In this document: in pieces, positions 51,990 to 63,799 of the stretch | Numbering within the stretch: position 1 is the first letter of the stretch | Layout: each line of letters begins with the position of its first letter | From: Ruegeria sp. 6PALISEP08 | GTDB taxonomy: Bacteria; Pseudomonadota; Alphaproteobacteria; Rhodobacterales; Rhodobacteraceae | Assembly: GCF_001238295.1 (NCBI RefSeq) | Contig: NZ_LGXZ01000002.1 | Span: 372,001-436,000 of the forward strand | DNA length: 64,000 nucleotides | Reading direction: 5' to 3' | Made by a program: the position numbers and the translations under genes | The notes under the pieces: generated by a model | The model's database searches: none | What the model was told of the DNA's origin: nothing | The model's input: the letters and a program-made list of their open reading frames with translations, nothing else

Positions 51990-52862
51990 TCAATCCTGAT
52001 TGCGGAATATCCGGGTCGACGAAAAAAACTGCTCCAGTTCCTCGATCCGCTCCTTGCTTTCCTCCCATCGCGCCTCCTGCACTTCGGCAATCAGGGTTTC
52101 GGAAATCAGTTGCAGTGCTATCGTCGAATCCCAGCTTGAAGGGGCCTCGACCAAAGCGTGGAAGGTGTAATTGGCGGCCTTTCCGATCGGTGAGCCCCAT
52201 TGATCCGTAAACAAAACAACCGTCACGCCGCGGCTCGAAGCGACTTGCGCCAGTTTTTCCAAATGCGCTTCGTACCGGCGGATGTCGAAGATCACCAGAA
52301 CAGAGGACGCGTCCATATCCAGAAGGTATTGCGGCCACACATTGGCCGAATTGCCCAGCATCGTCACATTGGGCCGGATGATCTGCATGTGATTGAACAG
52401 GTAATCCGCGTTGGATCGGGTGATACGGCCACCCACCACATAGAGATGCCGATCCGTCTCGGCCAACAGCTGGGCAACGGTGTCAAACATCCCTTTGTCC
52501 AGACGCTCCAGGGTGTGGCGCATGTTTGTCCATACGGCTTGCGCAAAGCGGGTTGTCGGGTGTTCGGCCTCGTCATCGACGACCCAGGCATCCCGTTTCG
52601 AGATCGGTTTCTTGATCTGCGCAGCCACTTCTTCGCGCAGCGCATCCTGCAAATCCGGAAACCCATCGAATCCCAGTTTGCGCGCCATGCGAATAACCGT
52701 CGGCGTCGAGACCTGAGCCGCAGCCGCCAGCTTGGTGATCGATTGCAACCCTGCCATCGGATAGTCCTGTAACAGGATTGATGCCAACTGGCGCTCTGAT
52801 CGGGTCAGTTCGTCCAGTTCATCCTGAATCCGCTGTTTGACGAGCTTCACAACGGTGGCCAT
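51990..52862 (-). CDS. RpiR/MurR family transcriptional regulator
   Basis: A 290-residue regulator. N-terminal HTH_6 domain (about 1-80; TRSERQLASILLQDYPM, STPTVIRMARKLGFDGFPDLQ) and C-terminal SIS sugar-isomerase-like domain (about 115-260; VVGGRITRSNADYLFNHMQII, DASSVLVIFDIRRYEAHLEKLAQVA). RpiR proteins respond to phosphosugars or related ligands. Divergent from the N-formylglutamate-amidohydrolase gene, with repeats TTTGTTACAG and CTGTAACAAA in the 94-base spacer, so it likely controls that cluster and itself. Confidence 0.92.
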   Translation of the reverse strand: MATVVKLVKQRIQDELDELTRSERQLASILLQDYPMAGLQSITKLAAAAQVSTPTVIRMARKLGFDGFPDLQDALREEVAAQIKKPISKRDAWVVDDEAEHPTTRFAQAVWTNMRHTLERLDKGMFDTVAQLLAETDRHLYVVGGRITRSNADYLFNHMQIIRPNVTMLGNSANVWPQYLLDMDASSVLVIFDIRRYEAHLEKLAQVASSRGVTVVLFTDQWGSPIGKAANYTFHALVEAPSSWDSTIALQLISETLIAEVQEARWEESKERIEELEQFFSSTRIFRNQD

Positions 52863-52882
52863 CGATGCCCTCTCTTCTTAAA

Positions 52883-52957
52883 TTTGTTACAGAGTATTCT
52901 CGTTTGTAATTTTGTCTACAGTAATTTTCTTGACAGGTGGGAAATTGCTGTAACAAA
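52883..52957. promoter_or_regulatory. Candidate RpiR operator in the divergent spacer
   Basis: TTTGTTACAG at 52883-52892 and its inverted copy CTGTAACAAA at 52948-52957 bracket TTTGTAAT (52903-52910) and TTTGTCTACAG (52911-52921). Three co-oriented half-sites plus one inverted. A TTGACA (52930-52935) is between them and a TAACAA is 15 bases on, a possible promoter of the catabolic cluster that would be covered by the regulator. The inverted half-site touches the first ATG of the next gene. Confidence 0.6.
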
Positions 52958-53751
52958 TGCTACCTATGCTTCACGAGACCGAGTCATCACTGCTACAACC
53001 GACAGAAGCCCCGGCCGCCCGAGTGCTTAATGCACAAGGCCGCGCGCCTGCGGTTTTGGTGTGCGAACATGCCAGCCGTTTCATCCCGGCTGCTTTGAAC
53101 GGTCTGGGTCTGGATGAGGATGCAGCACGGTCTCATGCGGCATGGGACATCGGCGCATTAGAGCTTTCGGTTGAGTTGATGGGAGCGCTGGACGCACCAT
53201 TGGTGCATTCCCGTGTCAGTCGCCTTGTCTACGACTGCAACCGTCCACCGGAACGCGAAGATGCGATGCCGCAACTTAGCGAAGTGTTCTCGGTTCCCGG
53301 CAACGCAAACCTGACTGCGGCCCAGCGTGACCAGCGGGTTCATGATGTGTACGAACCGTTCCGGCAGTTGCTGTCATCCACACTGGACGCGAGAAGCGAA
53401 CCGCCGGTTGTCGTCACCATTCACAGCTTCACTCCGGTCTACAAAGGACAGAGAAGGACGGTGGAACTGGGCATTCTGCACGACGAAGACAACCGTGCGG
53501 CCCAGATCATGCTGCAACAGGCGCAGGGGTCCGGGCTGCGCGTTGCGCTGAACGAGCCGTATTCGGCGACTGACGGCGTCACGCATACGTTGCGGGAACA
53601 TGCGATCAAACGCGGGCTTCCGAACGTCATGATCGAGGTTCGCAATGACCTGATCGACACACCAAAAGGCGTGAACCGCATGGCAGGTCTGCTGGCGCCG
53701 ATCCTGAAATCGGTCATCACCGCCCTTCCAGGCACAGGCGTAAAATCATGA
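52957..53751 (+). CDS. N-formylglutamate amidohydrolase family protein
   Basis: A 264-residue zinc amidohydrolase of the N-formylglutamate deformylase (HutG-like) family. Motifs: LVCEHASRFIPAAL near 35, SHAAWDIGALELSVEL near 61, SRLVYDCNRPPE near 85, VTIHSFTPVYKGQRR near 150, NEPYSATDGVTHTLREHAI and MIEVRNDLID near 220. Family members hydrolyse N-formylglutamate or related N-acyl acidic residues. No hut genes are near, so the substrate may be another N-acyl- or gamma-glutamyl amide. ATG at 52957 or 52966 (both without a clear ribosome binding site). First gene of the cluster under RpiR. Confidence 0.85.
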   Translation: MLPMLHETESSLLQPTEAPAARVLNAQGRAPAVLVCEHASRFIPAALNGLGLDEDAARSHAAWDIGALELSVELMGALDAPLVHSRVSRLVYDCNRPPEREDAMPQLSEVFSVPGNANLTAAQRDQRVHDVYEPFRQLLSSTLDARSEPPVVVTIHSFTPVYKGQRRTVELGILHDEDNRAAQIMLQQAQGSGLRVALNEPYSATDGVTHTLREHAIKRGLPNVMIEVRNDLIDTPKGVNRMAGLLAPILKSVITALPGTGVKS

Positions 53752-53767
53752 GAAAACGGGTGTCGAA

Positions 53768-54286
53768 ATGAAATTCATGCGGGGATATGTGGCGGTCATT
53801 GACCGCGCGAACCGCTGGATCGGGCGCGTGGTCATGTATGGCATTTTCGTCATGATGGGCATTCTGCTCTGGTCTTCGATCTCGAAAACCTTCTTTCTGC
53901 CATCGCTCTGGACACTGGAAATGGCTCAGTTCGCCATGGTGGCCTATTACATTCTGGGCGGCCCTTATTCGATCCAGATGGGGTCAAACGTCCGCATGGA
54001 CCTGCTGTACGGCGAATGGTCCGATCGCCGCAGGGCCTGGACCGACGCGATCACCGTCTTTTTCCTGATCGTCTATCTCGTTGTGATGATCTACGGCGGA
54101 TACGACTCGCTGAGTTATTCGCTGCAATATGGTGAACGCAGCCCAACCGCGTGGCGCCCGTACCTCTGGCCAATCAAGGTGATCATGGTCGTGGGGCTGT
54201 TCCTGATGTTGCTTCAGGCCATCTCGGAACTGTTCAAAGATATTTTGCGCCTCAAGGGCGATGACATCCCGCGCGAGGTGATTTGA
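53768..54286 (+). CDS. TRAP transporter small permease (DctQ)
   Basis: A 172-residue protein with four hydrophobic helices: YVAVIDRANRWIGRVVMYGIFVMMGILLW, LWTLEMAQFAMVAYYILGGPY, ITVFFLIVYLVVMIYGGYDSL, and VIMVVGLFLMLLQAISELF. Typical DctQ subunit with QMGSNVRMDLLYGEWSDRRRAW loop. It overlaps the large permease start by 4 bases. Confidence 0.94.
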   Translation: MKFMRGYVAVIDRANRWIGRVVMYGIFVMMGILLWSSISKTFFLPSLWTLEMAQFAMVAYYILGGPYSIQMGSNVRMDLLYGEWSDRRRAWTDAITVFFLIVYLVVMIYGGYDSLSYSLQYGERSPTAWRPYLWPIKVIMVVGLFLMLLQAISELFKDILRLKGDDIPREVI

Positions 54287-55611
54287 TGTCTTACGAAATG
54301 ATCGCCATCTTGATGTTCTCGACCATGATGCTGATGCTGCTGACCGGGCAGCGGGTGTTTGGGGCCATCGGCTTTGTTGCCGTCATGGCCGCCCTGTTCC
54401 TGTGGGGGGATCGCGGTGGCTATGACATCGGCTTTTCCGCCGCCATGAAGCTGATGAAATGGTACCCGCTGCTGACGCTGCCGATGTTCATTTTCATGGG
54501 GTATGTGCTGGCAGAATCCAAAATCGCCGACGATTTATACAAGATGTTCCACGTCTGGATGGGCGGTCTGAACGGCGGGCTGGCCATCGGCACCATTGGT
54601 CTGATGGTTCTAATCTCGGCCATGAACGGGTTGAGCGTTGCCGGAATGGCCATTGGCGCGACCATTGCGCTGCCTGAATTGTTGAAACGTGGGTATGACA
54701 AGAAGATGGTAACCGGGGTGATACAAGCCGGTTCATCGCTGGGTATCCTCGTGCCACCCTCCGTTGTGCTGGTTCTATATGCGATGATCGCGCGCCAGCC
54801 GGTTGGCCAGCTTTGGTTGGCTGGGTTGCTGCCGGGGCTGATGATGGCTGCAATGTTCATCCTGTATATCGTGATCCGCTGCCGGATTAACCCGGCATTG
54901 GGACCGGCGCTCTCGGCGGAAGAGCGCGACGTGCCAATGGCAGAGAAAATGCGCCTGTTGCGTGCAGGCTTGCTACCTTTGGGAATTTTCGCCGCGATGA
55001 TGGTGCCGTTTGTGAACGGTTGGACCTCATTGGTGGAAAGCTCGGCCATCGGCGCATTGACCGCTTTTGCGGCCGCAATCCTGAAAGGTCGGATGACGCG
55101 CGAAGTGTTCGAGACCTCGGTGCGCTCGACACTGGGCATCACCTGCATGTTCATGTGGATCATCCTTGCGGCGTTGGCTTTTGGCGCGGTATTCGACGGG
55201 CTGGGCGCGGTGCGCGCCATCGAGAACCTGTTCACCGAGCGTCTGGGTCTGAATCCCTGGGTGATCCTGATCTTCATGCAACTCAGTTTTATTCTAATGG
55301 GAACGTTCCTGGACGACACTGCCATGCTGGTGATCGTTGCGCCTCTGTACGTTCCACTCGTGGGCGCAATGGGGTTCGATCTGATCTGGTACGGGGTGCT
55401 CTATACGATCACGACCCAGATCGCTTATATGACACCACCGTTCGGCTATAACCTGTTCCTGATGCGGGCGATGGCACCACCTGAGATTTCGCTGCGCGAC
55501 ATCTATGGCTCGATCCTGCCTTTCGTGATGGTGATGACGCTTGCACTGGCAATCATCATGACCTTCCCGCAGATCGCGCTGTGGCTGCCAGAATATGTCT
55601 ACAACAAATGA
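54283..55611 (+). CDS. TRAP transporter large permease (DctM)
   Basis: A 442-residue membrane protein with about 12 helices. DctM family motifs: FIFMGYVLAESKIADDLYKM, VLISAMNGLSVAGMAIGATIALPEL, QAGSSLGILVPPSVVLVLYAMI near 150, FLDDTAMLVIVAPLYVPL near 345 and YMTPPFGYNLFLMRAMAP near 385. The elevator-type large subunit that carries substrate with Na+. Co-translated with DctQ. Confidence 0.95.
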   Translation: MMSYEMIAILMFSTMMLMLLTGQRVFGAIGFVAVMAALFLWGDRGGYDIGFSAAMKLMKWYPLLTLPMFIFMGYVLAESKIADDLYKMFHVWMGGLNGGLAIGTIGLMVLISAMNGLSVAGMAIGATIALPELLKRGYDKKMVTGVIQAGSSLGILVPPSVVLVLYAMIARQPVGQLWLAGLLPGLMMAAMFILYIVIRCRINPALGPALSAEERDVPMAEKMRLLRAGLLPLGIFAAMMVPFVNGWTSLVESSAIGALTAFAAAILKGRMTREVFETSVRSTLGITCMFMWIILAALAFGAVFDGLGAVRAIENLFTERLGLNPWVILIFMQLSFILMGTFLDDTAMLVIVAPLYVPLVGAMGFDLIWYGVLYTITTQIAYMTPPFGYNLFLMRAMAPPEISLRDIYGSILPFVMVMTLALAIIMTFPQIALWLPEYVYNK

Positions 55612-55678
55612 TCCCGGACCAAACCGGGGCATCGCGGGTATCCCCCGCATTGCTGAAACTGACCAACGGAGAGAGAGA

Positions 55679-56710
55679 ATGACGAACAGACGTACATTTC
55701 TGAAAGGTGCCGCGGCGGCCCCCGCTGCTGCGCTGGCGACGCCTGCATTGGCGCAATCGACGATAACGTGGCGGATGCAAACATATGCCGGTCCGGCATT
55801 GGCAGAACACGTGATCGATCCTGCCATCAAGATGTTCAATGACATCGCCGGCGACCGCATGCAGATCGAGCTGTTCTACGCAGACCAGCTTGTGCCCACA
55901 GGCGAGTTGTTCCGCGCAATGCAGCGCGGTACAATTGATGCGGTACAGTCAGACGATGACTCGATGGCCTCGCCCACCGAAGTCACGGTGTTTGGTGGGT
56001 ATTTCCCCTTCGCATCGCGTTACTCATTGGACGTGCCGGTTCTGTTCAACCAGTACGGCCTGAATGAAATCTGGGACGAACAATATTCGGCAGTCGGTGT
56101 TAAACACATCTCGGCCGGTGCATGGGACCCTTGCCACTTTGCGACCAAAGATCCGATCAATTCGCTTGCTGATCTGCAGGGTAAGCGCATCTTTACCTTC
56201 CCGACCGCAGGCAGGTTCCTGACACAGTTCGGTGTTGTACCGGTGACCCTGCCTTGGGAAGATATCGAAGTTGCGGTTCAGACAGGTGAGTTGGACGGGA
56301 TCGCCTGGTCGGGCATTACCGAAGACTACACCGTGGGCTGGGCAGATGTGACCAACTACTTCCTGACCAACAATGTGTCGGGCGCTTGGGCGGGTCACTT
56401 CTTCGCCAACATGGACCGTTGGAACGAATTGCCGGAAGATCTTAAAACACTGTTCAAGGTCTGCACCGACCAGTCACATTATTACCGCCAGTGGTGGTAT
56501 TGGGGCGGAGAAGCCTCATTGCGCGTGAACGGCGACAAGCTGAAGCTGACGACAATCCCGGATGATGAATGGGCAACCGTCGAGGACGCTGCCGTCAAAT
56601 TCTGGGACGAGATCGCGGCCGAGTCTGAGACAAAAGCGAAAGTTGTCGAAATCTTCAAGCAATACAACGCCGACATGCAAAAGGCCGGTCGGCCATATCG
56701 CTACGGTTAA
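55679..56710 (+). CDS. TRAP transporter substrate-binding protein (DctP), Tat-exported
   Basis: A 343-residue periplasmic receptor. Tat signal TNRRTFLKGAAAAPAAAL ends at about residue 26 (ALA/Q). Mature SBP has QTYAGPALAEHVIDPAIKMFND, GDRMQIELFYADQLVPTGELFRAMQRGTIDAV and the conserved KDPINSLADLQGKRIFTFPTAGRFLTQFGVVPVTLPWEDIEVAVQTGELDGI region with the substrate arginine (KRIF) and a TG(E)LDG stretch. Closely related proteins bind carboxylates or polyols. Third TRAP component; placed right before the glutamine synthetase gene. Confidence 0.94.
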   Translation: MTNRRTFLKGAAAAPAAALATPALAQSTITWRMQTYAGPALAEHVIDPAIKMFNDIAGDRMQIELFYADQLVPTGELFRAMQRGTIDAVQSDDDSMASPTEVTVFGGYFPFASRYSLDVPVLFNQYGLNEIWDEQYSAVGVKHISAGAWDPCHFATKDPINSLADLQGKRIFTFPTAGRFLTQFGVVPVTLPWEDIEVAVQTGELDGIAWSGITEDYTVGWADVTNYFLTNNVSGAWAGHFFANMDRWNELPEDLKTLFKVCTDQSHYYRQWWYWGGEASLRVNGDKLKLTTIPDDEWATVEDAAVKFWDEIAAESETKAKVVEIFKQYNADMQKAGRPYRYG

Positions 56711-56803
56711 GAAAACTGCCTACTCAACCTGCCCCCTTTCGTGGGGGCAGGTCTATCAGGACGAATGGCCGAAAATTCAATTCGGCAAAGACAAAGGTGG
56801 CAC

Positions 56804-58156
56804 ATGCTCACGTTCGAACATCTGAAAACGCAGGTATCCGAGGGATCGGTGGACACGGTTTTGGTCTGCATGGTCGATATGCAGGGCCGTTTGATGGGCA
56901 AACGCTTTCACGCAGGCCATTTCGTGGCCAGCGCGTGGGAAGAGACACATTGCTGCAACTATCTGTTGGCCACTGATCTGGAAATGGCGACGCCCGACGG
57001 TTATGCCTCCACCAGTTGGGAGCGCGGCTATGGTGACTATGTCATGAAACCCGACCTTGATACGTTGCGCCCGGTTCCATGGCTTGAGGGCACGGTCATG
57101 GTAATGTGCGATGTGCTGGATCACCATACGCATGAAGAGGTGCCACACGCACCGCGTTCGATCCTGAAAAAACAGGTCAACCGCTTGAAAGCCATGGGCT
57201 ACGACGCGATGACCGCGACGGAATTGGAGTTTTTCCTGTTCGAGAAGAGCTTTGACCAGATCCGCAAGGAAGGCTTCCGCGATCTGGAACCGATCTCGGG
57301 CTACAACGAAGACTATCACATTCTTCAAACCACCAAAGAAGAGCATGTGATGCGCCCGATCCGGAATCACCTGTGGGACGCGGGCATACCGGTTGAGAAC
57401 TCGAAGGGCGAGGCCGAAACCGGACAGGAAGAGCTGAACATCAAATACGCCGCGGCAATGGATACCGCCGAGTATCACTCGATCGCAAAAAACGCGATCA
57501 AGGAGATTGCATGGCAGCACGGCCATGCCGCGACTTTCCTGCCAAAATGGCACCATGATAAGGTGGGCAGCTCGTCCCATGTGCATCAGTCACTGTGGGC
57601 CGATGGCACGCCTGCGTTCTATGACGCGGACGACGCATTGGGCATGTCAGGGCTGATGAAAAGCTACATGGCCGGTCTGCTGAAATACGCCCCTGATTAT
57701 ACCTGCTTCATGGCGCCCTACATCAACAGCTACAAACGCTTCATGAAGGGCACCTTTGCACCGACGCGGATCATCTGGTCGGTCGACAACCGCACTGCCG
57801 GGTTCCGCCTATGTGGGGATGGCACCAAGGCGGTTCGGGTCGAGTGCCGGATTCCAGGTTCGGACATGAACCCCTATCTGGCGATGGCCGGAATGCTGGC
57901 TGCTGGGATTGCAGGGATCGAGGAAGGGCTGGAGTTGCAGCCGCCCACCACCGGCGACGTCTATCAGGGCGAGACCGGCATGATCCCCGGCAACCTGCGT
58001 GCGGCACGGGATGCGCTGCATGGCTCGACCATGTTACGGGCGGCCATGGGCGATGACGTTGTCGATCACTACGCCCGCGCCGCCGAGGTCGAGATCGAAG
58101 AGTTCGAGCGTGTGGTGACCGATTGGGAAGTTGCTCGCGGGTTTGAACGGGCTTGA
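56804..58156 (+). CDS. Glutamine synthetase family protein (gamma-glutamylamide synthetase, PuuA-like)
   Basis: A 450-residue protein with the two glutamine-synthetase domains. N-terminal VCMVDMQGRLMGKRF (PuuA-like, in place of the DGSS ammonia motif of true GlnA), catalytic TATELEFFLFE (glutamate ligands), ETGQEELNIKY, WHHDKVGSSSHVHQSLW (catalytic His/Glu), NSYKRFMKGTFAPTRIIWSVDNRTAGFRL and the C-terminal ECRIPGSDMNPYLAMAGML. It ligates glutamate to an amine rather than ammonia, forming a gamma-glutamylamide. ATG is after AAAGGTGGCAC. The next genes are ALDH and iron ADH. Confidence 0.88.
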   Translation: MLTFEHLKTQVSEGSVDTVLVCMVDMQGRLMGKRFHAGHFVASAWEETHCCNYLLATDLEMATPDGYASTSWERGYGDYVMKPDLDTLRPVPWLEGTVMVMCDVLDHHTHEEVPHAPRSILKKQVNRLKAMGYDAMTATELEFFLFEKSFDQIRKEGFRDLEPISGYNEDYHILQTTKEEHVMRPIRNHLWDAGIPVENSKGEAETGQEELNIKYAAAMDTAEYHSIAKNAIKEIAWQHGHAATFLPKWHHDKVGSSSHVHQSLWADGTPAFYDADDALGMSGLMKSYMAGLLKYAPDYTCFMAPYINSYKRFMKGTFAPTRIIWSVDNRTAGFRLCGDGTKAVRVECRIPGSDMNPYLAMAGMLAAGIAGIEEGLELQPPTTGDVYQGETGMIPGNLRAARDALHGSTMLRAAMGDDVVDHYARAAEVEIEEFERVVTDWEVARGFERA

Positions 58157-58159
58157 GGT

Positions 58160-58225
58160 CGGGCCAGGTTGGGGGCTCTGCCCCCAGACCCCCGAGATAT
58201 TTTTGGCCAGATGAAGCAGGGATCC
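58160..58225 (+). repeat. Rhodobacterales-type intergenic element with GC hairpin
   Basis: The hairpin TGGGGGC-TCT-GCCCCCA (58170-58186) is followed by CCCCCGAGATATTTTTGGCC and an AGATGAAGCAGG tail. It acts as a partial terminator or RNA 3' stabiliser, and resembles a repeat that I know from many Rhodobacteraceae genomes. A degenerate copy of the tail is at 25496-25529. Confidence 0.6.
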
Positions 58226-58250
58226 TGTTTCTTTCGGAAATGGAGTGGAT

Positions 58251-59633
58251 ATGGGGCAGATGTTGAAATGTGTCTCACCGATCGATGGATCGGTTTTTGC
58301 GGAACGAGAAGTGTTGTCTCGGGACGCGGCGTTTGAGGTTGCAGGCCGGGCGCGCGCCGCTCAGGCAGATTGGGCCGCGCGGCCCCTGCAGGAGCGGATT
58401 GATCTTGTCATGGCGGGCGTGGCTGCTGTTGGCGCGATGAATGACGAGATCGTACCCGAGCTGGCGCATATGATGGGCCGCCCGGTGCGCTATGGCGGTG
58501 AGTTTGGTGGTTTCAACGAGCGCGCCAGCCATATGGCCGAAATCGCTGAGGCTTCTCTGGTTGATATCGCGGTGGGCGAAGATGAGACGTTCAAGCGTTA
58601 CATCAAGCGCATTCCGCATGGGGTGGTGTTTGTCGTGGCACCGTGGAACTACCCCTATATGACCGCCATAAACACGGTCGCACCGGCGCTGATCGCGGGG
58701 AATACTGTGATCCTGAAACATGCCACGCAGACGCTGCTGGTGGGTCAGCGTATGGCACAGGCGTTCCATTCGGCAGGTGTGCCTGAGGACGTGTTTCAGA
58801 ACGTGTTCCTGAGCCATGACGTCACCAATGAACTGATTGCGGGCAATGCGTTTGATTTTGTGAACTTCACCGGCTCGGTCGGCGGTGGCCAGGCTATGGA
58901 ACGTGCGGCGGCTGGTACGTTTACCGGCGTAGGCACCGAGCTGGGTGGCAAAGACCCGGGTTATGTCATGGAGGACGCGGATCTGGACGCAGCCGTCGAT
59001 ACGTTGATCGACGGAGCAATGTTCAACTCGGGTCAGTGTTGCTGTGGGATCGAGCGCATTTACGTCCACGAAAGCCTATTCGATGATTTTGTCGCCAAGG
59101 CAGTTGAGATTGTAAACAGCTACAAGTTGGGCAATCCGCTGAATTCCGAGACGACGATTGGTCCGATGGCAAATGTACGTTTTGCCAAAGAAGTGCGCGC
59201 GCAGATTGCCGAAGCTGTTGAGGCCGGTGCGGTCGCACATATCGACACCTTTGCTGAAGACGATGGTGGCGCCTACCTGACGCCACAGATTCTGACCAAT
59301 GTGACCCATGACATGCGGGTGATGCGGGATGAGAGCTTTGGGCCGGTTGTGGGCATCAGGAAAGTGTCTTCGGATGAAGAAGCCATTCAACTGATGAATG
59401 ACAGCGAGTTTGGCCTGACCGCCAGCCTGTGGACCCGCGATGTGGATCGTGCGGCGCGGGTGGGCGATCAGATCGAGACCGGCACTGTATTCATGAATCG
59501 GGCGGATTATCTAGACCCTGGTCTGTGCTGGACCGGCTGCAAGAACACCGGGCGCGGCGGCGGCCTTTCGGTCATTGGCTATCACAACCTAACCCGTCCC
59601 AAATCCTATCACCTGAAGAAGGTCACGGGCTAA
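58251..59633 (+). CDS. Aldehyde dehydrogenase family protein (NAD(P)+-dependent)
   Basis: A 460-residue enzyme. Conserved PWNYPYMTAINTVAPALIAGNTVILKHA near 132, GSVGGG near 217, catalytic Glu in TELGGKDPGYVMEDADLD near 240, catalytic Cys in MFNSGQCCCGIER near 275 and SFGPVVGI near 370. It oxidises an aldehyde to an acid. ATG follows GGAGTGG with 5 bases. Lies 94 bases after the glutamine synthetase gene. A gamma-glutamyl amino aldehyde substrate (as for PuuC) is proposed from context. Confidence 0.94.
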   Translation: MGQMLKCVSPIDGSVFAEREVLSRDAAFEVAGRARAAQADWAARPLQERIDLVMAGVAAVGAMNDEIVPELAHMMGRPVRYGGEFGGFNERASHMAEIAEASLVDIAVGEDETFKRYIKRIPHGVVFVVAPWNYPYMTAINTVAPALIAGNTVILKHATQTLLVGQRMAQAFHSAGVPEDVFQNVFLSHDVTNELIAGNAFDFVNFTGSVGGGQAMERAAAGTFTGVGTELGGKDPGYVMEDADLDAAVDTLIDGAMFNSGQCCCGIERIYVHESLFDDFVAKAVEIVNSYKLGNPLNSETTIGPMANVRFAKEVRAQIAEAVEAGAVAHIDTFAEDDGGAYLTPQILTNVTHDMRVMRDESFGPVVGIRKVSSDEEAIQLMNDSEFGLTASLWTRDVDRAARVGDQIETGTVFMNRADYLDPGLCWTGCKNTGRGGGLSVIGYHNLTRPKSYHLKKVTG

Positions 59634-59640
59634 GGACGAT

Positions 59641-59678
59641 GGTCTGCTCGGGTTTGACCCCCTCCCCCCAAGCAGACC
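59641..59678 (+). other. Inverted repeat between aldehyde and alcohol dehydrogenase genes
   Basis: GGTCTGCT (59641-59648) and AGCAGACC (59671-59678) pair over 8 bp with a 22-base loop rich in C. No T-run follows. It may be a stabilising RNA hairpin; alternatively chance. Confidence 0.4.
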
Positions 59679-59701
59679 TCAAATCACAAAGGAAACCTGA
59701 C

Positions 59702-60847
59702 ATGTCACTTGTTGGAAACTGGTCCTATCCGACCGCAATCAAATTCGGCGCCGGACGCATCAAGGAACTGCCTGAAGCCTGCGCTGCCGCCGGGATGAAA
59801 AAACCCCTGCTTGTCACGGACAAGGGGCTTGCCGATCTGCCGATCACCGCCGCAACCTTGGACATCATGGAGGCCGCAGGACTGGGTCGTGGGCTATTCA
59901 GCAATGTGGATCCCAACCCGAACGAAAAGAACCTCGACGCCGGGGTTGCTGCCTACAATGCGGGCGGCCATGACGGTGTGATCGCTTTTGGCGGAGGCTC
60001 GGGGTTGGATCTGGGCAAGATGGTCGCCTTCATGGCGGGTCAGACTCGGCCCGTATGGGATTTTGAGGATATCGGCGACTGGTGGACCCGCGCAGACGCG
60101 GAAGTGATCGCGCCGATCATCGCAGTGCCGACCACCGCCGGGACGGGATCGGAAGTTGGGCGTGCCAGTGTCATCACCAACTCGGAAACCCACGCGAAGA
60201 AGATCATTTTCCACCCCAAGGTTCTTCCAACCGTAGTGATCTGCGACCCTGAACTCACTGTCGGGATGCCCAAGTTCATCACCGCAGGCACGGGTCTCGA
60301 CGCCTTTGCTCACTGCGTCGAGGCATATTCCAGCCCGCACTATCACCCGATGAGCCAGGGCATTGCGCTGGAAGGGATGCGGCTGGTGAAAGAATATCTG
60401 CCGCGCGCCTATGCCAACGGCACCGATATCGAGGCCCGCGCCCAGATGATGAGCGCAGCAGCCATGGGCGCGACGGCCTTCCAGAAAGGGCTAGGTGCCA
60501 TCCACGCGATGAGCCACCCGATCGGGGCAGTGTTCAACACTCACCACGGTACCACCAACGCGGTTTGTATGCCTGCTGTGCTGGAGTTCAACGCCCCTGC
60601 CATCGCCGACCGGTTCCAGCAGGCCGCGTCTTATCTGGGCATTGATGGTGGCTTTGACGGCTTCCGTGCCTTTGTGCAGGAGTTCAACGACAGCCTCGGC
60701 ATCCCGCGCACCCTGTCCGACTTGGGTGTGACCGAGGCCGCAATCCCCGAACTGGTCGAAGGCGCGATCATCGATCCCTCTTGCGGGGGCAACCCGATAG
60801 AGTTGACGAAAGAAAATCTGACGCAGCTGTTCAAGGCCGCGCTTTAA
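59702..60847 (+). CDS. Iron-containing alcohol dehydrogenase
   Basis: A 381-residue group III ADH. NAD-binding FGGGSGLDLGKMVAFM near 96, PTTAGTGSEVGRASVITN near 143; metal ligands Asp/His in GTGLDAFAHCVEAY near 195, GAIHAMSHPIGAVFNTHHGTTNAV near 260 (two His). Usual length. It would oxidise an alcohol to an aldehyde with NAD+. It directly follows the aldehyde dehydrogenase, so an alcohol-to-acid conversion is encoded. A strong terminator follows at 60852. Confidence 0.95.
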   Translation: MSLVGNWSYPTAIKFGAGRIKELPEACAAAGMKKPLLVTDKGLADLPITAATLDIMEAAGLGRGLFSNVDPNPNEKNLDAGVAAYNAGGHDGVIAFGGGSGLDLGKMVAFMAGQTRPVWDFEDIGDWWTRADAEVIAPIIAVPTTAGTGSEVGRASVITNSETHAKKIIFHPKVLPTVVICDPELTVGMPKFITAGTGLDAFAHCVEAYSSPHYHPMSQGIALEGMRLVKEYLPRAYANGTDIEARAQMMSAAAMGATAFQKGLGAIHAMSHPIGAVFNTHHGTTNAVCMPAVLEFNAPAIADRFQQAASYLGIDGGFDGFRAFVQEFNDSLGIPRTLSDLGVTEAAIPELVEGAIIDPSCGGNPIELTKENLTQLFKAAL

Positions 60848-60851
60848 AACC

Positions 60852-60882
60852 AAAGGGCCCGGCAAAACCTGCCGGGCCCTTT
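60852..60882. terminator. Bidirectional terminator
   Basis: AAAGGGCCCGGCA, loop AAACC, TGCCGGGCCCTTT: a 13-bp near-perfect stem between the plus-strand ADH stop at 60847 and the minus-strand HlyD stop at 60906; short T-runs on both sides. Confidence 0.9.
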
Positions 60883-60905: not shown

Positions 60906-62138
60906 TCAATGCCCGGTCAGCACCAAAGTGTTCACCGGCATCAGGATCAAACGCAGGCGCAGACCTGCGGCGTGAACCACACCGATTGTGTCCACCACAT
61001 GCAAGAACGCAGCCTCCCAAAAGCCCAGATCCTCGTACTCTAGCCGCTCGTGGTTATCGGTGTAGACATTGGCCAGACAGTTGCTGCCCGGAAGAATGTC
61101 ATCGGCCATACCTTTGTATAGCGGCTCCACATAGACCAGGATCGAACCGGGTTGGTTGTTGGTTTGCACATCGCGCAGCTCGTCCGACGGGCGGATCTGT
61201 CCCGATGGGATCACATCCTGCACCTCGACCACCACCGTGGGGATTACCGTGAACGGCTTGGTCATGCAGCCCAACTCTCCGATCATGCCCGGTTTGATGA
61301 CCTGAGCGGACAGTTGGTTGAACGCAGCCTGGAACCGGTCATGTCCGGTATGTGACGGCACCAGAATACCGGCAGGGCGCAACAATGGGCTTACATAATC
61401 GCCGACCTGTAAGCTAAACTGTTCGACCCGTCCGGTAACACCAGCGAGAATAACTGTTTTGTCCAACTCGGTCTGCGCGGCGTCCAGTTGCGCAATCGCA
61501 CTGGCCAGTTGGGCAGGGATCAGCTCTTCGATCTGCTGCTCAACTGCTGCACGTTTGGCTTCAGCCGCGACAACCTGCGCCTCACGCTCGGCGACAAGAT
61601 TTTCCAACCTATCAATCTCGGCCAGCCGCACAGCGCTCGAACCTTCGTCGCGCAAGGTTGTGTTGCGTTCCAGATCCTCGAGAGACTGCGCAAGGGCGGC
61701 CTTCGCGCCAGCGATTCCTGCGTCAGCCTCTGCCAGGTCGGTTTCGGCAACTTTAAGCGAGGCCTGCACCTGCGCTATCTGTGCATTTGCCGCCTGAACC
61801 TGCGCGGTTTGGCTGAAATCCTCGATCCGGAATATCGGCTGACCCGCCGTGACCAGTTGGTTGTTCTTGACGAAAACCTCTGAAACACGCCCGCCCAGCT
61901 GTGGCAGGATCGTGACGGTACGGAAATAGGACGCGGCCGTTTTGCTGGCCGGGTGGAAATAAAACAGCGTGGTGATCACGGTCAGCGCCAGAATGGCGCA
62001 TGTCGTCAGGCCCCAACGCAGTTCGTACCACATGGTAAACAAGGTGATTTCGTGACCTATACGTTTGCCCTGTACAAACCGGCGGAACAAATAATCGGGC
62101 AGCACCGTAATCAAGGCGCAGAGCATGGTCTCGATCAT
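60906..62138 (-). CDS. HlyD family membrane fusion protein (YiaV/YibH-like)
   Basis: A 410-residue periplasmic adaptor. One N-terminal membrane helix (about 45-68; WGLTTCAILALTVITTLFYF), a biotinyl-lipoyl-like hairpin start (VTILPQLGGRVSEVFVKNNQLVTAGQPIFRIED near 88), a long coiled coil (115-215) and beta-barrel (VTGRVEQFSLQVGDYVSPLLRP near 245). YiaV/YibH adaptors of E. coli are encoded with DUF3302 partners and lack an adjacent pump. Here the DUF3302 gene is upstream with a 4-base overlap. An ABC or RND partner is not nearby. Possible role: envelope stress or efflux. Confidence 0.9.
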   Translation of the reverse strand: MIETMLCALITVLPDYLFRRFVQGKRIGHEITLFTMWYELRWGLTTCAILALTVITTLFYFHPASKTAASYFRTVTILPQLGGRVSEVFVKNNQLVTAGQPIFRIEDFSQTAQVQAANAQIAQVQASLKVAETDLAEADAGIAGAKAALAQSLEDLERNTTLRDEGSSAVRLAEIDRLENLVAEREAQVVAAEAKRAAVEQQIEELIPAQLASAIAQLDAAQTELDKTVILAGVTGRVEQFSLQVGDYVSPLLRPAGILVPSHTGHDRFQAAFNQLSAQVIKPGMIGELGCMTKPFTVIPTVVVEVQDVIPSGQIRPSDELRDVQTNNQPGSILVYVEPLYKGMADDILPGSNCLANVYTDNHERLEYEDLGFWEAAFLHVVDTIGVVHAAGLRLRLILMPVNTLVLTGH

Positions 62139-62563: not shown

Positions 62564-62725
62564 CTTACCCTCCTTTATATTTTGATACTTCTTTGACCGG
62601 GTTGAAGCGTAAATTCAAGGCTGCTTATAGTCTTGAAAGACAAACGCAAAACGAATGAAAGACTCACAGACCAATATGCAATTCCAGAATACTTCGCCGC
62701 ATCCCGTCCGAGGCGCCCGCAAACC

Positions 62726-63799
62726 ATGATTGATTTTCTGATCATCGGTGGTGGCATCGCCGGTCTCAGCGCTGGCGCGCGCCTGTCGCAGCATGGAACC
62801 GTGATGGTGCTCGAGGCCGAGGACGCCCTGGGCTATCACGCATCCGGCCGATCTGCTGCACTGTTTGAAGAAAACTATGGATCGCCTTCGGTTGTCGCTC
62901 TGAACAAGGCAGGCGCTGCCTTCCTGCATTCGCAGAACGGAGGTTATCTGACTCCGCGCGGATTGATGTTGGTCGGCGCGCGAGATCAGTCAGACCTGTT
63001 TGCTGCTGATTGCAGGGACTTGAACATGGCGCAAATATCGACAGTTGACGCCATTGCACGTGTTCCGATCCTGAACTCCCAGCAGGTGGGCTTTACGGCT
63101 GTCAGCGAAACCGCTTTTGACATCGATACAGATCGTTTGTTGCAGGATTTTGCCCGAACCATTCGGCAGAATGGCGGGACGATTTCGACCAAACACAGGG
63201 TCACTGCCATCCGCAAAGACCTGCATTGGATCGTCACCGCCGGTCAGAGTTTTGAGGCCCATAACCTGGTCAACGCCGCCGGCGCGTGGGTGGACGAAAT
63301 CGCCGGTCTTGCGGGGCTTCCGCCCATCGGTATTACCCCGCGCCGCCGGTCCATGGCGCGATTGCCCGCCCCAGGTGGCCATGATGTTTCCGTTTGGCCC
63401 ATGATGCTGGGTGTGGGTGAAACATGGTACGCTAAACCCGATGCCGGGAAACTTCTGGTCTCGCCATCCGAGGCCGACCCTGTTCCTCCTCAGGATGCTT
63501 ATGCGGACGATATGGTGCTGGCAGAAGGTCTGGCGCGGTATGAGGCATTGATGATCGAAAAGGTCACACGGGTCGAAACAAACTGGGCCGGGTTGCGCAG
63601 TTTTGCGCCAGACGGAACTTTGGTACTTGGAAGAGACCCTCAGGACCCTTCATTCATATGGAGCGCTGGACAAGGTGGCTATGGCTTTCAAACCGCGCCT
63701 GCAGCGTCTCAGTTGCTTTGCGATCTGGTTACAGGAGCTCCTCCTGCCCTTGACGCTGGGATTGTTGCCATGTTGACCCCAGAAAGGTTGAAGCAATGA
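62726..63799 (+). CDS. FAD-dependent oxidoreductase of the DAO (glycine/D-amino acid oxidase) family
   Basis: A 357-residue flavoprotein. FAD fold at the N-terminus (FLIIGGGIAGLSAGARL, VLEAEDALGYHASGRSAALF), mid NAAGAWVDEIAGLAGLPPIGITPRRRSM near 205, and C-terminal GLRSFAPDGTLVLGRD near 298 and WSAGQGGYGFQTAPAASQLL near 322. The family includes D-amino acid dehydrogenases, glycine oxidases and 2-hydroxyglutarate oxidases; substrate is unassigned. ATG at 62726. Overlaps the next gene's start by 4 bases. Confidence 0.9.
   Translation: MIDFLIIGGGIAGLSAGARLSQHGTVMVLEAEDALGYHASGRSAALFEENYGSPSVVALNKAGAAFLHSQNGGYLTPRGLMLVGARDQSDLFAADCRDLNMAQISTVDAIARVPILNSQQVGFTAVSETAFDIDTDRLLQDFARTIRQNGGTISTKHRVTAIRKDLHWIVTAGQSFEAHNLVNAAGAWVDEIAGLAGLPPIGITPRRRSMARLPAPGGHDVSVWPMMLGVGETWYAKPDAGKLLVSPSEADPVPPQDAYADDMVLAEGLARYEALMIEKVTRVETNWAGLRSFAPDGTLVLGRDPQDPSFIWSAGQGGYGFQTAPAASQLLCDLVTGAPPALDAGIVAMLTPERLKQ

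Follow-up and report, generated by a model that had tools for sequence, protein, structure and literature searches.

Among the closest described systems is the Puu putrescine pathway of Escherichia coli, where the logic of gamma-glutamylation, oxidation and hydrolysis is applied to another substrate with another class of hydrolase and another transporter. Ethanolamine clusters of Chromohalobacter salexigens and Agrobacterium C58 are reportedly described in Vetting 2015, as cited by PMC10132767. In Phaeobacter sp. MED193, an operon with the gene order RpiR-GGAH-EtoV-EtoW-EtoX-ETAGA-GAADDH-GETADH has been published (PMC10132767, Fig. 5 legend). Its receptor, EtoX, is reported to bind ethanolamine with a Kd of 7.9 uM, with no binding of phosphorylethanolamine, phosphocholine and glycerol phosphates, and five of the eight operon proteins are raised on phosphorylethanolamine (PMC10132767). 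Receptor binding and protein induction have been demonstrated in Phaeobacter, and the enzyme steps, including the gamma-glutamylglycine hydrolase role of the FGase homologue, are assigned there by annotation (PMC10132767).

The genes of the C. salexigens pathway are described as demonstrated to function in PMC10132767 and the pathway as predicted in silico in PMC6529630. In Streptomyces, GlnA4 is a demonstrated gamma-glutamylethanolamide synthetase and the later steps are proposed, the last of them being assigned to a hydrolase of the formylglutamate amidohydrolase family; the cluster legend of the same paper names one gene as a glutamine amidotransferase (PMC6529630).

The cluster of Ruegeria sp. 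6PALISEP08 analysed here has the same eight genes, the same order (as judged by the figure legend) and the same predicted reactions as the operon of Phaeobacter sp. MED193 (PMC10132767), in a different organism. It resembles the ethanolamine cluster of C. salexigens in the receptor (Csal_0678, 4UAB) and, by the best match to 5dm3, in the glutamine synthetase (GS) homologue, and it resembles Agrobacterium C58, which like C. salexigens belongs to another lineage, in the FGase homologue by structural match (Atu2144, 2odf). With the GlnA4 pathway of Streptomyces coelicolor it shares the gamma-glutamylethanolamide synthetase, an aldehyde dehydrogenase (ALDH) and the hydrolase that is proposed from the formylglutamate amidohydrolase family, whereas the S. 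coelicolor cluster legend has a short-chain dehydrogenase for the iron alcohol dehydrogenase (ADH) and differs in the putative transporter and in the regulator (PMC6529630).

Sequence data and searches

The window is the whole 64,000-nt stretch of Ruegeria sp. 6PALISEP08 DNA that was analysed, and the cluster occupies window positions 51990-60847. Relatives were obtained by a scan with the GS homologue, from which the best 80 of at least 585 confirmed relatives were taken, so that the sample represents the nearest 80 only. A search with the receptor across the order (292 genomes) was performed without a tight cut-off, and hence no frequency is derived from it.

Gene content and boundaries of the cluster

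The cluster is, with a probability of about 0.93, an eto-type ethanolamine catabolic operon, the individual steps being predicted by homology. The ORF list places the RpiR regulator on the minus strand and the hydrolase, DctQ, DctM, receptor, GS homologue, ALDH and iron ADH on the plus strand. The features are as follows.

51990..52862, minus strand: RpiR/MurR-family regulator (HTH_6 and SIS; ORF list, Pfam), divergent, likely ethanolamine-responsive with a presumed ligand
52905..52920, no strand: candidate operator TGTA-N8-TACA (TGTAATTTTGTCTACA) from motif counts in intergenic regions, function presumed
52957..53751, plus strand: FGase-family amidohydrolase, predicted gamma-glutamylglycine amidohydrolase (GGAH; PF05013, PDB match 2odf)
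53768..54286, plus strand: TRAP small permease DctQ (EtoV; Pfam)
54283..55611, plus strand: TRAP large permease DctM (EtoW; Pfam)
55679..56710, plus strand: TRAP ethanolamine receptor by homology (EtoX; Pfam DctP, best PDB match 4uab), with TAT signal
56804..58156, plus strand: GS homologue, predicted gamma-glutamylethanolamide synthetase (ETAGA; Gln-synt_C, best PDB match 5dm3)
58245..59633, plus strand: aldehyde dehydrogenase, predicted gamma-glutamyl-aldehyde dehydrogenase (GAADDH; Aldedh, ELGGK and GQCC motifs)
59702..60847, plus strand: iron alcohol dehydrogenase, predicted gamma-glutamylethanolamide dehydrogenase (GETADH; Fe-ADH, DAFAH and HAMSH motifs)
60852..60882, plus strand: G+C-rich inverted repeat with 12-bp arms AAAGGGCCCGGC / GCCGGGCCCTTT, read from the sequence, likely terminator

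Every one of the eight families (HTH_6 with SIS, FGase, DctQ, DctM, DctP, Gln-synt_C, Aldedh and Fe-ADH) scores above the Pfam cut-off, and the gene set of the original prediction, made from the DNA letters alone, is borne out in place and strand for all eight genes. Its hint that this exact gene set was undescribed does not hold, since the same set in the same order has been published for Phaeobacter (PMC10132767).

The ATG at 56804 and the position 59702 are probably the starts of the GS homologue and the iron ADH, rather than the longest-ORF starts, as judged from the reading frames and the alignment with 5dm3. The ELGGK and GQCC motifs kept by the ALDH and the DAFAH and HAMSH motifs kept by the iron ADH are what we take to be the usual functional motifs of the two families. 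The operon probably ends at 60852-60882, because the inverted repeat comes after the final stop codon and the next gene in the ORF list, at 60906-62138, converges on the 3' end of the operon.

An FAD-dependent oxidoreductase of the DAO family lies near the operon, at window positions 62633-63799. It was considered as a consumer of the glycine product and rejected, since the fetched stretch contains a relative (at least 70% identity) in only three of the 58 complete operons, L006, L016 and L018, where the entire chromosomal block accompanies it; the gene is probably unrelated to the operon.

TRAP receptor

The best PDB match of the receptor is 4uab (E-value 7.9e-191, ungapped over residues 25-342), with the next structure at an E-value of 1.8e-16. 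The structure 4UAB is described as a complex of Csal_0678 with ethanolamine, in which Glu220 and aromatic side chains hold the ligand (PMC12410723), and Csal_0678 is reported to be devoid of the Arg by which other TRAP receptors select carboxylates (PMC4646407). Residue F172 of the window receptor faces an Arg in the alignment with 4yzz, which in our reading of the motif is the carboxylate-selecting Arg, so that the window receptor, like Csal_0678, would have no such residue. Residue E215, in GITEDYTVGW, is Glu in all 69 receptor rows, three of which are the window's own receptor. In the alignment with 4uab it faces chain index 217, and it would correspond to Glu220 only if the two numberings are shifted by 3.

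Position 172 differs between two receptor classes, being Phe in 63/63 class A rows and Tyr in 6/6 class B rows. The second class, found in L016, L018, L044, L057, L060 and L073, is 63-64% identical, lies beside the other operon genes and has 51 class-specific positions; L016 and L018 share the chromosomal block of the window. These receptors may bind another amino alcohol.

GS homologue and FGase-family hydrolase

The GS homologue matches 5dm3, which we believe to be linked to C. salexigens, with an E-value of 8.3e-240, followed by 11zs (5.1e-170) and an archaeal glutamine synthetase as third-best (6.7e-54). In the alignment with the host's own GlnA (L085), the Asp of MVDMQGRLMGKR faces the Asp of FTDPRGKLQH and the Glu in KGEAETGQ faces the Glu of HHEVASCQ in the ammonium region; these are presumably Asp50/Glu212-type residues. 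With both residues kept, the earlier suggestion that MVDMQGRLMGKR stands in place of the ammonia-site motif has to be withdrawn. Two more GS-like genes (L087 and L088) lie close together in the same genome at C1:62641-65728 and are possibly other gamma-glutamyl ligases.

The only PDB match of the hydrolase is 2odf (Atu2144; E-value 3.7e-66), and its PF05013 score is 147.9-148.3 bits. Among 73 related hydrolase sequences, in which the window and its own copy are counted, 48 positions are at least 98% conserved, including H38, H156, H175, E227 and R229. The genome carries three other FGase-family genes, only one of which (L003) is similar enough to align.

Proposed pathway and alternative explanations

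In the proposed pathway, ethanolamine would be imported by the TRAP system EtoVWX and joined to glutamate at the expense of ATP by the GS homologue, giving gamma-glutamylethanolamide, which the iron ADH would oxidise to the gamma-glutamyl aldehyde and the ALDH further to gamma-glutamylglycine. The FGase-family hydrolase would then release glycine and regenerate glutamate, and the RpiR protein would control the operon, with ethanolamine or an intermediate as the probable signal. The route originally predicted, from amino alcohol import through gamma-glutamylation to ADH and ALDH, agrees with that published for this gene order (PMC10132767), and the anticipated FGase-family hydrolase in place of PuuD likewise appears in PMC10132767 and is proposed for Streptomyces in PMC6529630. 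No EutB match was detected in the genome, with the control EutB found in E. coli, one of 14 control genomes, and the ammonia-lyase (Eut) route is therefore unlikely here.

The same chemistry could serve another main substrate, such as alaninol, 1-amino-2-propanol, serinol, isopropylamine or a similar small amino alcohol or amine. Related routes through gamma-glutamylation exist for further amines, isopropylamine being one, and the second receptor class, with its 51 class-specific positions in six loci of the same operon type, suggests that specificity may vary. However, the window receptor closely matches 4UAB, the published complex with ethanolamine (PMC12410723), and EtoX of the same operon in Phaeobacter binds ethanolamine, with none of these four compounds among the ligands named in the accessible text of PMC10132767; another main substrate is thus improbable. 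Counted against the ethanolamine reading are the induction of EtoX of MED193 by phosphate starvation alone (PMC10132767, Table 2) and the observation that conservation across the complete operons is lowest in the regulator and the FGase homologue, which have a median of 47% and 51% identity, respectively, with their window counterparts.

Membership of PF00120 and PF05013 would also suit a nitrogen or histidine cluster, with the GS homologue using ammonia and the FGase homologue cleaving N-formylglutamate, and the presence of a PuuA-like ligase with an ALDH would suit a variant of the putrescine (Puu) pathway; both are very improbable. The GS homologue scores 253.6 bits against a cut-off of 429.15 for the GlnA equivalog TIGR00653 and is also below the curated cut-off of the type III glutamine synthetase model, and the hydrolase is far below the cut-off of the HutG equivalog TIGR02017 (22.4 bits against 278.75). 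The genome also possesses genes that fit the two families better, namely a GlnA (L085) with a PF00120 score of 451.1 bits as against 328.7 for the cluster protein, and two FGase-family genes that outscore the cluster hydrolase (254.8 and 239.8 bits as against 148.3). With regard to putrescine, the gamma-glutamylputrescine synthetase model NF045547 has a cut-off of 650 bits, of which the GS homologue reaches 197.2, and a PuuD-type hydrolase is found by Pfam in none of the eight cluster proteins. To our knowledge, an iron ADH and an ethanolamine-type receptor have no role in the Puu pathway, which also speaks against it.

Regulator and candidate operators

The space between the regulator and FGase genes is 94 bp long and holds TGTAATTTTGTCTACA at 52905-52920. 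The pattern TGTA-N8-TACA is present in 12 of 65 intergenic regions between regulator and FGase genes, whereas 300 mononucleotide shuffles gave 0.17 on average and 2 at most. All seven spaces (that of the window among them) whose regulator has an identity of about 91% or higher contain the pattern; the other five belong to more distant regulators and have different middle bases. A second pattern, GGAA-N6-TTCC, was observed in 10 of the 53 spaces devoid of the first (shuffle mean 0.38, maximum 4, for spacers of 6 to 8), both motifs together in none of the 65 and neither in 43; the contrast with the shuffles is flattered in both cases, as both motifs were selected by inspecting the very sequences in which they are counted, and single-base composition is all that the shuffles preserve. 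The two motifs are candidate operators. A sigma-70 promoter scan of 52840-52980 found no promoter.

Conservation and variant modules in the relatives

All eight genes are present in 58 of the nearest 80 loci (best 80 of 585), with the seven plus-strand genes collinear and the RpiR gene divergent upstream in 58/58; the cluster is therefore not a chance assembly. The remaining 22 loci are a mix of contigs ending inside the operon and real variants. The closest named loci among the matches listed are from Ruegeria. A GS match at an E-value of 1e-150 or lower, counted by this match alone, was found in seven of 96 genomes of the class, the host genome included, and the six other genomes of this wider draw show 53-65% identity.

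An IMPase-family gene and/or a Na/Pi-transporter gene lies near the ligase in 16 of the nearest 80 loci (best 80 of 585), and neither is present in the window cluster. Relatives of the IMPase-family gene of L019 occur up to 4 kb upstream of the GS gene in 10/80 loci (L013, L019, L022, L024, L025, L033, L039, L047, L064 and L081), and relatives of the Na/Pi transporter of L014 or L019 also in 10/80 (L014, L017, L019, L021, L023, L025, L030, L033, L042 and L081). In five of the latter, L014, L017, L021, L023 and L030, the TRAP operon is complete and the Na/Pi gene is inserted between the genes for the receptor and the GS homologue (at 8235-9917 in L014). Pfam was applied to the transporters of L014 and L019 (Na_Pi_cotrans plus PhoU) and the phosphatases of L019 and L022 only.

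Relatives of a sulfatase-superfamily gene of L022 were identified 2-5.5 kb upstream in L022, L025, L033, L081 and, with an identity of only 27%, L082, and in L065 on the downstream side, about 8 kb from the GS start; the L025 copy, the one compared with NCBIfam, scores 451 bits against the PehA cut-off of 900. A 2-aminoethylphosphonate-type ABC system adjoins in L047, its receptor scoring 315.9 bits against a cut-off of 392.75, with a weaker match in L065 (61.2 against 310); the receptor of L025 is more like polyamine receptors. Gamma-glutamylation genes are accompanied by IMPase-family, Na/Pi, sulfatase-superfamily and ABC genes in L019, L025, L033, L081, L047 and L065, not all of them at each locus. 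In L022, L042, L066 and L075, no ALDH relative was found in the fetched stretch at an E-value of 1e-10 and the iron ADH gene follows the GS gene directly or closely; the ALDH of these loci may be located elsewhere.

The IMPase-family, Na/Pi, PehA-like and 2-aminoethylphosphonate-type ABC genes near the GS gene in the relatives suggest that a phosphorylated compound is an alternative source of the ethanolamine. It is conceivable, though we do not regard it as the likelier case, that the gamma-glutamylation enzymes act as a common hub for differing supply modules, which in some relatives, and not in the window, would import phosphorylated or glycerophospho-ethanolamine, cleave it inside the cell, export the phosphate and convert the ethanolamine to glycine. 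A literature search of open-licence PubMed Central articles found no description of such a variant; further Pho-independent headgroup pathways are mentioned in PMC10132767, the accessible text of which does not name IMPase-family or Na/Pi-type genes. Ruegeria sp. 6PALISEP08 would be one more bacterium for an already known pathway, and the useful remainder lies in the variant modules of its relatives.
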